Shown piece by piece: positions 37,684-41,015 of a stretch of DNA of 64,000 nt. The DNA comes from Minwuia thermotolerans (GTDB lineage: Bacteria; Pseudomonadota; Alphaproteobacteria; Minwuiales; Minwuiaceae). Both the position numbers and the translations under genes were made by a program. Every line of letters starts with the position of its first letter. Within the stretch, counting starts at the first letter, position 1. The notes beneath the pieces were generated by a model. That model made no database searches. It saw only the letters and a list, made by a program, of their open reading frames with translations, and had not been told where the DNA came from. Location of the stretch: positions 124,001 through 188,000 of the forward strand of contig NZ_PIGG01000065.1 of assembly GCF_002924445.1 (NCBI RefSeq). The letters are read 5' to 3'.

Positions 37684-38034
37684 ATGAATACCCCCGTATG
37701 GACCAAACCAGCCCTTTTCGGCGCGGCCGGTGGCGCAGCGCTTCTCGCCCTGGTCGGCTTTGCCTGGGCTGGCTGGGAGACAGCCGATTCCGCCGAGCAG
37801 ATGGCAACGCAGCGCGCCCACGCGGAGGTGGTGGCCGCGCTGGTGCCCTTCTGTGTGCAGAACGCCGGTGCGGACCCGCAGCGGGTCGCGGTGCTGACAC
37901 GGATGAAGGCGGCGCCGACCTATTCCCGCGCCGAGATGCTGATGGAGAGCGGCTGGGCGACGATGCCCGGCGACGAGCGGCCCGACCGCAGTCTCGCCAA
38001 CGCGTGCCTGGACCGGCTGGCCACCGAATTCTAG
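37684..38034 (+). CDS. Conserved hypothetical protein with N-terminal membrane helix
   Basis: A 116-residue protein. Residues 8-30 (ALFGAAGGAALLALVGFAW) form one membrane helix or uncleaved signal; the remainder, with ALVPFCVQNAG and SLANACLDRL, has two Cys that could pair in the periplasm. I have seen proteins of this build (ending in the periplasm, with a G-W-x-G motif after the helix) annotated as hypothetical in many alphaproteobacteria. Function unknown. The stop interlocks with that of the convergent YaiI gene in CTAG (38031-38034). Confidence 0.7.
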   Translation: MNTPVWTKPALFGAAGGAALLALVGFAWAGWETADSAEQMATQRAHAEVVAALVPFCVQNAGADPQRVAVLTRMKAAPTYSRAEMLMESGWATMPGDERPDRSLANACLDRLATEF

Positions 38035-38510
38035 GGACTGTCGTCACCCGGGCCGGACTGTTTCCGCGCGGCCTGCACCGCCCGCTCCAGCCGGTCGAGG
38101 AAGCGCGAGCGGTCCGCCCTGCCGAACGGGCGGCCGCCGCCGCCGGTCCAGAGGGGATTGGCCGCGCGGATGTCAGCCATCAGGTTCCGCGCCGCGAGCT
38201 GGGCCCCGATGTTGTCGGGCGTGAAGGCGTCGCCGTTGTGGCGGATGGCCATCGCGCCCCGCTCCAGGCAGCGGCCGGCCAGCGGTATGTCGCCTGTAAT
38301 GCAGATGTCGCCCGGTCCGGCGCGCTCGGCTATCCAGTCGTCGGCCGCGTCGGCGCCCTCGGCGACGATCACCGTCTTTACCAACGGATCGCGGCTGGGT
38401 CTGAGGCCGCCATTGGAGACGACGTAGACCTCCAGCCCGTGCCGCGCGGCCACGCGCTCGACCTCCTGTCTGACGGGGCAGGCGTCGGCGTCTACGAAGA
38501 TGCGGGTCAT
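38031..38510 (-). CDS. YaiI/YqxD family protein (DUF188)
   Basis: A 159-residue protein of the UPF0178 family, a PIN-like fold of unknown activity. The opening IFVDADACPVRQEV is the signature, with paired Asp residues, and AERAGPGDICITGDIPLAGRC forms the second acidic site. GRADRSRFLDRLERAVQ closes the domain. Start at 38510 places the signature at residue 5, as in homologues. The gene follows the halohydrin-dehalogenase-like gene by 8 bases and is probably co-transcribed. Confidence 0.92.
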   Translation of the reverse strand: MTRIFVDADACPVRQEVERVAARHGLEVYVVSNGGLRPSRDPLVKTVIVAEGADAADDWIAERAGPGDICITGDIPLAGRCLERGAMAIRHNGDAFTPDNIGAQLAARNLMADIRAANPLWTGGGGRPFGRADRSRFLDRLERAVQAARKQSGPGDDSP

Positions 38511-38518
38511 GTTGAGCC

Positions 38519-39184
38519 TCAGGTCGCCCAGCCGCCGGCCAGAGGGATGATCTGGCCGACCATGTGGTTGCACCTTTCGCTGGCGAGGTAGGCGGCGAGT
38601 TCCGCGGTTTCCTCGGCCGCGCCCACCCGGTTGGTCGGCACGTTGCGTTTGACGTGCTCGAGGAACTTCGCGTTGTCCAGAATGTCGTCGGGATAATAGG
38701 TGTCGTTGTTGATGTAGTTCTGCGCGATGGCGTTGGCCTGGATGTTCTCGCGCGCCAGTTCGAGTCCCAGGGCCTTGATGAAGCCGTTCTGCGCGCCGCG
38801 CGCGGCGCAGTAGGCGGCGTTGTTGGGAATGCCACGGAGCGGCGCCGCGCTAGTCACGGCAATGATCCTGCCCGACCGCCGCTCCCGCATCTGCGGAACC
38901 ACCGCGCGGACCACGTACATCAGCGGATCGACCATGGATTCGAACAGTCTCCGCCAGTCCGTATTGTCGATTGCCTCGACCGGCCCGGTCATCGGCGGTT
39001 CGGCCAGGTTGGCGACCAGAATGTCGATCCGGCCCGCGGCCGCCACCAGCGCCTCGCATTCGGCCTGGCTCTTCATGGGCTCGCCGCCCCGGATCACCGC
39101 TATGCCGAGTTCTTCGAACCTGCGGGCGATCGCCGGACCCATATAGCGCTCGGCGCAGGTGACGAGGGCGGTTCGCTTGGTCAT
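38519..39184 (-). CDS. Halohydrin-dehalogenase-like short-chain dehydrogenase-fold protein
   Basis: The 221-residue SDR-fold protein lacks both normal SDR marks. The Gly-rich NAD loop is replaced by VTCAERYMG, where T9-x4-Y14-x-G16 is the T-x4-[F/Y]-x-G motif defining halohydrin dehalogenases. The catalytic site is S112-x12-Y125-x3-R129, with Arg where SDRs have Lys; Ser-Tyr-Arg is the halohydrin dehalogenase triad. The later segment with NY and YYP before a short helix also resembles HheC. Such enzymes close vicinal haloalcohols to epoxides with loss of halide and open epoxides with azide, cyanide or nitrite. No haloalkane-metabolising neighbour is visible. Confidence 0.8.
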   Translation of the reverse strand: MTKRTALVTCAERYMGPAIARRFEELGIAVIRGGEPMKSQAECEALVAAAGRIDILVANLAEPPMTGPVEAIDNTDWRRLFESMVDPLMYVVRAVVPQMRERRSGRIIAVTSAAPLRGIPNNAAYCAARGAQNGFIKALGLELARENIQANAIAQNYINNDTYYPDDILDNAKFLEHVKRNVPTNRVGAAEETAELAAYLASERCNHMVGQIIPLAGGWAT

Positions 39185-39341: not shown

Positions 39342-39833
39342 ATGAGCGAGAAGCGCTGGAGCGTCTATCTGTCGGGCGAAATCCACAGCGACTGGCGCGA
39401 GCGGATCGAGAGCGGCATCGCCGAGGCCGGTCTGCCGGTCGATCTGAGCGCGCCGATCACCGTCCATGAGGACTCCGACGATTGCGGCGTCGCGATCTTC
39501 GGGGCCGAACCGGACAAGTTCTGGCACGACCGCAAGGGCGCGCAGCTCAACGCCATGCGCACCCAGACGTTGATCCGGGAGGCCGACCTTGTCGTCGTCC
39601 GCTTCGGGGAAAAGTACAAGCAGTGGAACGCCGCCTTCGACGCCGGTTTTGCGGCGGCTCTGGGCATTCCCTACATCACGCTCCATCCCGAGCAGCACGA
39701 CCACGCGCTGAAGGAAGTCGACGGCGCGGCCAACGCCGTCGCCCGGGAGCCCGAACAGGTCGTGCAGGCGCTGGCCTACATCATTAGCGGACGGATGCCG
39801 GCGGTCATGTCGGGCACTCAGGCGGCGGAGTAG
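39342..39833 (+). CDS. YtoQ family protein
   Basis: A 163-residue protein matching YtoQ: WSVYLSGEIHSDWRERIE at the start, DDCGVAIFGAEPDKFWHD, and VVRFGEKYKQWNAAFDAG in the middle. The fold is related to nucleoside 2-deoxyribosyltransferase-like proteins; function is not established. Start at 39342 is preceded by GAGGAG, while earlier in-frame ATGs are not. It ends 3 bases from the convergent luciferase-like monooxygenase gene. Confidence 0.87.
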   Translation: MSEKRWSVYLSGEIHSDWRERIESGIAEAGLPVDLSAPITVHEDSDDCGVAIFGAEPDKFWHDRKGAQLNAMRTQTLIREADLVVVRFGEKYKQWNAAFDAGFAAALGIPYITLHPEQHDHALKEVDGAANAVAREPEQVVQALAYIISGRMPAVMSGTQAAE

Positions 39834-39836
39834 CGG

Positions 39837-40853
39837 TCAGCCCGCCGCCGCCTTGAGGCGGGGGGCGACGTCGCGCACGAACCGCTCCAGATGCGGGTTC
39901 ATCTGAGCGGCGGTCATGCCCGGCGGCACGCCCCAGGTCACAAGATCCGTGACGCCGTACTCGGCGATGAAGGCGGACAGCTCGGCGACGCAGTGATCGA
40001 CGTCGCCGACCACCCAGCTCTGAGGGATGCGGTCGACATCCCGGCTGGTGGCGAGACCGTCGCCGGATTCCCGGTTGAAGCGCAGATAGACCTCCATGCG
40101 GTAGCGCTCGGCCTGTTTCACCGCGGGCCAGTCCCGCTCCGGATCGTCGGTGACGAGACAGGACCGGATGATGCCGACGCGGCGGCTATCGGGATCGTGG
40201 CCGGCGGCGCGCATGTCCTCGCGCCAGGGATCGAGAACCTCTGCCCGCGGTCCCTGGGGCAGCAGGTTGGCGCCGAAGCGGGCGGCGCGCCGCGCCCCGG
40301 GCTCCGACATGGCGGCGATCCAGATGGGCGGGCCGCCTTCCTGGACATAGCCGGGCCGGATCTCGACATCCTCGAACCGGTATCGCTTGCCGGCGAAGCT
40401 GAACTTCTCGCCCGAGAAGCAACGCTGCAGCACCTCGATTCCTTCCTCGGTACGGGAGACGCGCTGCTTCACCGGAATGCCGAAGCCACGGAACTCGTGC
40501 GGCGCATAGCCCATGCCGATGCCGATCTCGATCCGTCCGTTCGACAGGTTGTCGATGACGGCCAGGTCCTCGGCCAGCCTGACGGGGTTCTGGAACGGCA
40601 TCAGGCAGATGTCCGACGAGAAGCGGACATGCTTCGTCCGCGCGGCCATGGCCGCGGCCACTGGCGTCCATGACGGCAGGTAGCCGTCCTCCAGAAAGTG
40701 GTGCTCGGTGAACCAGACCAGGTCCAGGCCGAGGCCATCGAGCCAGGCGACCTGGTCCAGGATAGTGCCGTAGAGCTCGGTGTTGGCGATGCCGGAATCC
40801 GGCGGATTGCGGAAATCGTAGGCGACGCCGATCCGAAGCGGCGGTCGGGCCAT
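39837..40853 (-). CDS. Luciferase-like flavin-dependent monooxygenase (LLM class)
   Basis: A 338-residue bacterial-luciferase-fold enzyme that uses reduced FMN or F420. Typical features are the barrel start RIGVAYDFRNPP, GLDLVWFTEHHF, RIEIGIGMGYAPHEFRGFG and GPPIWIAAMSEPGARRAARFG. Start at 40853 has no obvious strong RBS but gives the exact family N-terminus. It is probably a single gene. The substrate is unknown; the family includes alkane, sulfonate and nitrilotriacetate monooxygenases. The flavin reductase at 534-1145 could serve it, but that is speculation. Confidence 0.85.
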   Translation of the reverse strand: MARPPLRIGVAYDFRNPPDSGIANTELYGTILDQVAWLDGLGLDLVWFTEHHFLEDGYLPSWTPVAAAMAARTKHVRFSSDICLMPFQNPVRLAEDLAVIDNLSNGRIEIGIGMGYAPHEFRGFGIPVKQRVSRTEEGIEVLQRCFSGEKFSFAGKRYRFEDVEIRPGYVQEGGPPIWIAAMSEPGARRAARFGANLLPQGPRAEVLDPWREDMRAAGHDPDSRRVGIIRSCLVTDDPERDWPAVKQAERYRMEVYLRFNRESGDGLATSRDVDRIPQSWVVGDVDHCVAELSAFIAEYGVTDLVTWGVPPGMTAAQMNPHLERFVRDVAPRLKAAAG

Positions 40854-41015
40854 GGTTTCTCTCCCCGTCTGTCTCTCTCCCGCAGGCGATCCTGACCGCA
40901 TTCGTCCGCCGGGGCCAGAGGGTGCGGTGCGGCGCGGCGTTGACGATTTGTTAACCTGTCCGGGTTCTGCTGGCGGCATGAGCCGAGAAGTCTCTAGAGC
41001 GCGGAAGCGGTCGGC

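Follow-up and report, generated by a model that had tools for sequence, protein, structure and literature searches.

The question raised by this locus is whether the minus-strand gene at 38519..39184 of the window (the whole stretch of 64,000 nucleotides that was analysed) encodes a halohydrin dehalogenase (HHDH), and what natural job such an enzyme could have. The original prediction had recognized the product as an HHDH by its fingerprint and had expected its default annotation to be that of a plain SDR oxidoreductase. Indeed, Pfam and NCBIfam searches returned generic SDR families only, and the fingerprint is backed by a profile, a tree and a modelled fold.

Family placement of the window protein

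The HHDH-like protein (P0002) has 221 aa, and its frame runs on the minus strand from an ATG at 39184 to a stop ending at 38519. An alternative longer ORF starts upstream at 39343; of the 45 relatives found by a genome-contig scan, 41 align from the first residue of the 221-aa form onwards. Motif 1 (residues 9-16, TCAERYMG; 39137..39160, minus strand) replaces the NAD(P) glycine loop, as seen in the sequence and in an SDR alignment, and reads T9-x4-Y14-x-G16 (T9-C-A-E-R-Y14-M-G16). Motif 2 (residues 112-129; 38798..38851, minus strand) reads S112-x12-Y125-x3-R129, where S112, Y125 and R129 form the presumed catalytic set. Both motifs agree exactly with the positions predicted for them and occupy the same positions in the relatives. 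In publications, the HHDH motifs are given as T-X4-F/Y-X-G and S-X12-Y-X3-R (PMC4989007, PMC11976700), and their classical SDR counterparts are T-G/A-X3-G/A-X-G and S-X10-14-Y-X3-K (PMC11976700).

Comparison with characterized enzymes pointed to the B and D types. Using phmmer against PDB sequences, P0002 matched HheD2 (7b73, 2.3e-54), then HheD8 (8xxb, 2e-52) and then HheB (3e-41). A profile was built from a 25-row alignment (22 rows from the P0002 clade and three, at 44-46% identity, from the window's class), and it gave 261 bits for HheD8, 258 for HheD2 and 228 for HheB vs. 120 (119.9) for the best classical SDR. The same profile gave 153 bits to the 'dehalogenase' 6a41 and 121-124 to HheC and its mutants. 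By this measure, enzymes of types A, C and G come no closer to the P0002 clade than classical SDRs do, or scarcely closer. HheC (1pwx) also belongs to the HHDHs and has a catalytic set of this kind (PMC4989007), but it has 254 aa and, at 120.9 bits, is about as distant from the profile as the best classical SDR. The special likeness to HheC that had been proposed was therefore not borne out, as HheB and HheD are nearer by phmmer, structure and profile.

HHDHs are homotetramers whose SDR fold holds a nucleophile pocket where SDRs have the cofactor site. The monomer model of P0002, made from the same 25 rows, has a mean pLDDT of 85.8 and a pTM of 0.87, with weaker parts at block 111-120 (pLDDT 65) and at the final residues (<50). 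Its top four structural matches (VIA Z) are HheB (31.1), an HheB mutant (31.1), HheD8 (30.1) and HheD2 (30.0), and the best other SDR follows at 28.1, a small margin. The SDR fold that P0002 would share with HHDHs is by itself no proof of function. Specifically, HheB of Corynebacterium sp. N-1074 (4zd6; rmsd 1.9 over 218 residues) shares both motifs and a similar length with P0002, but has 39.7% identity to it and a separate tree branch. HheD2 and HheD8 share both motifs, the length, the fold (Z 30) and the N-F...Y-F-P stretch after the triad, but they differ in their separate tree branch and in their identity (43.0 and 41.6%, respectively, over the stretches compared). Thus the nearest characterized enzymes compared have only 40-43% identity to P0002.

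The tree was limited to B and D types, 21 of the 45 relatives and 19 of 28 SDRs from the window's own genome. It split 33 HHDH rows from the 19 own SDRs at 100/100. P0002 falls in a group of 27 rows (96/96, with a bootstrap not fully converged) that lies outside both the HheB branch and the HheD2/HheD8 branch. P0002 therefore stands apart from the B and D enzymes compared, and a placement in subtype D was not supported, P0002 being off the HheD branch with HheD2 and HheD8 as references. Concerning subtype D, HheD19-38 have 57-95% identity to verified D enzymes according to the 2016 review (PMC4989007), vs. 43 and 42% for P0002. Overall, P0002 looks like a genuine HHDH, another well-supported member of a known family. 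Judged from its sequence and model, it is with good confidence best explained as a cofactor-free HHDH of the B/D lineage, with an activity that would follow from the chemistry of the family. Type E HHDHs have been described from marine gammaproteobacteria, and for that reason the P0002 clade may be type E.

One genome-contig scan led to 45 relatives at 63-82% identity to P0002. The titles of 42 begin with MAG, and their names point mainly to Gammaproteobacteria and Pseudomonadales, and in some cases to Burkholderiales and Rhodospirillaceae; the sample names hint at a marine origin. Both motifs are intact in 42 of the 45, a count somewhat biased by the fact that two of the six search patterns fall in the motifs. 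The exceptions are L023 (Ser for Thr9), L038 (an N in the Thr9 codon) and L039, where the HHDH frame breaks after 36 codons (L039:8001), either through an assembly error or as a pseudogene. The expectation that members are few did not hold, given these 45 relatives from one scan and an HheD series that already extends to HheD38 in the 2016 review (PMC4989007). In wider searches, which scored no more than the best 7 or 10 candidates of each genome, HHDH relatives were found in three of 288 other genomes drawn from the window's class (E 1e-50; 45-47% identity), in none of 397 other genomes drawn from its phylum (E 1e-60) and in seven of 293 genomes drawn from the order of G303, G303 included (E 1e-60; 48-77%).

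Genes beside the HHDH of the relatives

In the relatives, a DsbA-like gene (PF01323; nearest solved protein FrnE) is located directly upstream of the HHDH gene on the same strand. In 34 of the 45 loci it has an in-frame TGA at the codon of the first active-site Cys (U-P-W-C), and this conservation of an in-frame TGA at a redox motif across species marks it as a predicted selenoprotein gene. It lies just before the HHDH gene in 33 of these 34 loci and 4.2 kb off in L049. Examples are L022:7375-8001 and L013:7277-7894, from the set L009-L053. The gene ends at most 330 nt from the start of the HHDH match in 32 of 33 loci measured and overlaps it by 1 or 4 nt in 15 of the 33; L052 overlaps too. 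It is missing in nine loci, and L017 and L025 have about 110 bases or fewer upstream. ORF calling placed the start of the DsbA-like gene after its TGA.

Third codon positions are 93% conserved over the 36 nt from the TGA on, vs. 67% in the preceding 30 nt and 58% in the following 64 nt. From 13 nt past the TGA, a 7-bp stem closing a 5-nt loop can pair completely in 31 of 32 distinct sequences (36 loci); L015 has 6 of 7 pairs, and L078 and L122 keep the stem with a different loop. Because single-sequence folds after the TGA vary in detail and an Rfam search of four loci gave no SECIS match, we grade this sequence element as a likely SECIS. Additionally, of 19 tested genomes with both the TGA gene and HHDH (from the 34 loci, L049 included), 17 gave a tRNA-Sec match of at least 59.9 bits, and the 67-bit match of G303 was read as tRNA-SeC by ARAGORN. 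tRNA-Sec is missing in L021 and L033, perhaps due to incomplete assembly. Among the four genomes with HHDH and no partner gene, tRNA-Sec is present in L036 and L046 and absent in L012 and L047.

UxxC DsbA-like proteins are a listed selenoprotein family (PMC13188914). The DsbA-like protein form 1 of that list, a predicted selenoprotein family, resembles the partner found here in its PF01323 match and its U-x-x-C, but a pairing with HHDH is absent from the part describing it (PMC13188914). No publication naming both 'halohydrin dehalogenase' and 'selenoprotein' was found in our literature search. Both the HHDH family and the UxxC DsbA-like family are already known; it is for the link between the two genes that this search gave no published account.

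ORFs near the HHDH gene were clustered over 46 sets including the window; the loci are related, which makes the following counts interdependent. In 37 sets, a CoA-transferase III gene is located downstream of HHDH in convergent orientation, and in 35 there is an acyl-CoA dehydrogenase gene on the same strand as the CoA-transferase. A TPR protein (29 sets), a MaoC hydratase (23) and a thiolase (15) were also recurrent. The CoA-transferase resembles 2-methylfumaryl-CoA isomerase but scores under its cut-off (549 vs. 725 bits). In L126 and L129, the CoA-transferase matches each have one TAA inside the matched stretch. An alkyl sulfatase (PF14863/PF14864) is found upstream of HHDH in 13 sets (L022, L026, L027, L030 and others), beside the TPR protein, and a second sulfatase-like protein, named from sequence alone, in nine.

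The co-occurrence of these genes was also followed in the order of G303. HHDH at 68% identity or more is present in G303, G310 and G313, the same three genomes with a DsbA-like gene at 64% or more, all bearing the TGA; they are already among the 45 relatives, so this co-occurrence adds no new evidence. At E 1e-45, the DsbA-like gene was missing from the four genomes with HHDH at 48-61%. Some genomes speak against a strict pair: G535 lacks an HHDH at E 1e-60 but has a DsbA-like gene with the TGA (53%) and a CoA-transferase (55%), and G336 has a CoA-transferase (63%) with neither HHDH nor DsbA-like gene at the limits used. Nine genomes in total, G535 and G336 among them, lack an HHDH at E 1e-60 and possess a CoA-transferase at 50-63%. 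Finally, three contigs of G287 carry between them a DsbA-like gene with the TGA (64%), a CoA-transferase (55%) and an HHDH, but this HHDH groups with HheB in the tree, outside the P0002 clade.

Proposed chemistry and natural role

In the proposed reaction, Ser112 would hold a vicinal haloalcohol while Tyr125, aided by Arg129, deprotonates it. The haloalcohol oxygen would then expel the halide, which enters a pocket that motif 1 lines, and an epoxide would result. Asn156-Tyr157, matched to HheC, presumably line the halide pocket as well. In the reverse reaction, P0002 would open epoxides with small anions. In the gammaproteobacterial relatives, HHDH and the selenocysteine DsbA/FrnE-like gene would act as a two-gene unit beside CoA-linked catabolic genes. 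In gammaproteobacteria, the P0002 clade and the selenocysteine redox protein probably take part in the same CoA-linked catabolic route, and the native job of the enzyme in these bacteria is probably one step in breaking down a halogenated or epoxidized metabolite. Any chemistry assigned to the HHDH-selenoprotein pair would be a guess. The sulfatase genes near HHDH make a sulfated substrate possible. In some loci, the alkyl sulfatase and sulfatase genes close by would be in keeping with halogenated sulfolipids; no publication with 'chlorosulfolipid' was found in our literature search, and for this reason the idea is only a guess.

The most serious alternative is that proteins with the HHDH architecture carry out another reaction in nature, such as epoxide opening by another small anion, a thiol or a selenol, or an elimination on a CoA or lipid intermediate, dehalogenation being a mere side activity. 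The pairing of HHDH with a selenocysteine redox protein and CoA-catabolism genes speaks for this, as does the fact that ten clusters scanned for family, with one representative each, included no epoxide hydrolase and no halogen-related family. According to the 2016 review, only two known HHDH genes shared an operon with an epoxide hydrolase at that time, and functions beyond the breakdown of halogenated compounds stay possible (PMC4989007). However, the motif residues are kept in nearly all of the relatives, and 19 HHDHs that had been selected on these two motifs proved active in published assays (PMC4989007). We consider this alternative a real possibility, at somewhat less than an even chance.

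The window copy and its genus

Two genes flank the HHDH gene in the window: yaiI (DUF188; 38031..38510, minus strand), which starts 8 nt past the HHDH stop, and ytoQ (PF11071; 39342..39833, plus strand), a divergent neighbour. An operon with the YaiI gene had been claimed; the shared strand and the 8-nt gap make co-transcription plausible only. It had also been claimed that no halogen-related gene stands nearby, and a scan of ten proteins from the 33.1 to 44.4 kb part of the window found none. Two genes from HHDH, at 39837-40979, lies a gene for a luciferase-like flavin monooxygenase (PF00296), a homologue of which is located away from yaiI-ytoQ in G001-G003 (on another contig, or more than 400 kb off in G003).

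The HHDH gene is present in two of the seven genomes of the genus, namely the window's own (G000) and G006, and the copy of G006 is 98% identical to P0002. Over 221 codons, dN is 0.010 and dS 0.210 (dN/dS about 0.05), and the gene is under purifying selection. In G001-G004, yaiI and ytoQ are adjacent and in tandem on one strand without HHDH, and for G005 ytoQ alone was seen. The window has an inverted yaiI that follows the HHDH gene, in the same order as in G006, so a rearrangement accompanied the HHDH gene. A simple one-gene insertion of HHDH between yaiI and ytoQ is ruled out by the same inversion. An origin of the gene from a phage or plasmid was also rejected, as none of 49 viral stretches encodes an HHDH relative and a plasmid search gave a single match, at 39.6% identity.

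The partners of the relatives were not found here. Of the 27 clusters found in four loci or more, the HHDH cluster is the only one that includes the window. No selenoprotein partner was found in the window's genome, where the best DsbA-like match has 30% identity, and no CoA-transferase matched at E 1e-40. Since the selenoprotein and CoA context is absent around the window copy, it gives no direct word on the function of that copy. For tRNA-Sec, G000, G006 and G003 scored 48-49 bits (official cut-off 47), and ARAGORN read the matches of G000 and G003 and the second match of G306 all as tRNA-Ser. The best match of the window's genome, at 49 bits, was thus rejected as a tRNA-Sec.

These absences, together with the restriction of HHDH to two genomes of the genus, would suit a stray acquired gene without present use, but this is very unlikely in view of the low dN/dS between two species that retain the gene, a GC content like that of its surroundings, the intact frame and the close spacing to yaiI. 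The organism of the window appears instead to hold an enzyme without selenium or CoA partners beside yaiI, and the use of this copy may be a simpler job, e.g., clearing haloalcohols or epoxides.

The same genome also supplied the SDR controls, 28 SDR ORFs from 27 of 53 matching places. Motif 1 occurs anywhere in three of the 28, motif 2 in none and both motifs in none. In the alignment, the Y14 column is Gly in 27 of the 28 and the R129 column is Lys in 25. The spacing T9-N59 is 50 residues in P0002, and the matching spacing is 73-91 residues (median 77) in the 16 own SDRs that allowed the measurement, making the cofactor-holding stretch about 27 residues shorter in P0002. In SDRs this stretch normally holds the adenosine part of the cofactor, and from the short spacing much of it would be gone in P0002. 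The glycine-rich loop and Tyr-x3-Lys of classical SDRs are both lacking, and a classical SDR identity was rejected on the basis of the loop, the Lys-to-Arg change and the tree. That P0002 is an ordinary NAD(P)-dependent SDR oxidoreductase resembling HHDH motifs by chance would agree with its generic Pfam and NCBIfam assignment and its SDR fold, but is extremely improbable given the Tyr in place of the second loop Gly, the Arg in place of Lys, the motif counts, the shortened stretch and a profile and tree that place it with HheB/HheD.

As a broader and rather unlikely reading, offered tentatively, a gammaproteobacterial and probably marine clade would use HHDH and the Sec DsbA/FrnE-like protein as a pair in the CoA-linked breakdown of a halogenated or epoxidized natural product, and the window's genus, unable to read UGA as selenocysteine, would have kept or acquired HHDH without the selenium partner. 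HHDHs are industrial enzymes, and the repeated gene neighbourhood of this clade is a lead on their natural role. The larger gain lies in the closely spaced selenoprotein gene and the CoA-catabolism genes, which name concrete partners for testing. If true, the pair reading would give the enzyme clade of P0002 a natural pathway.
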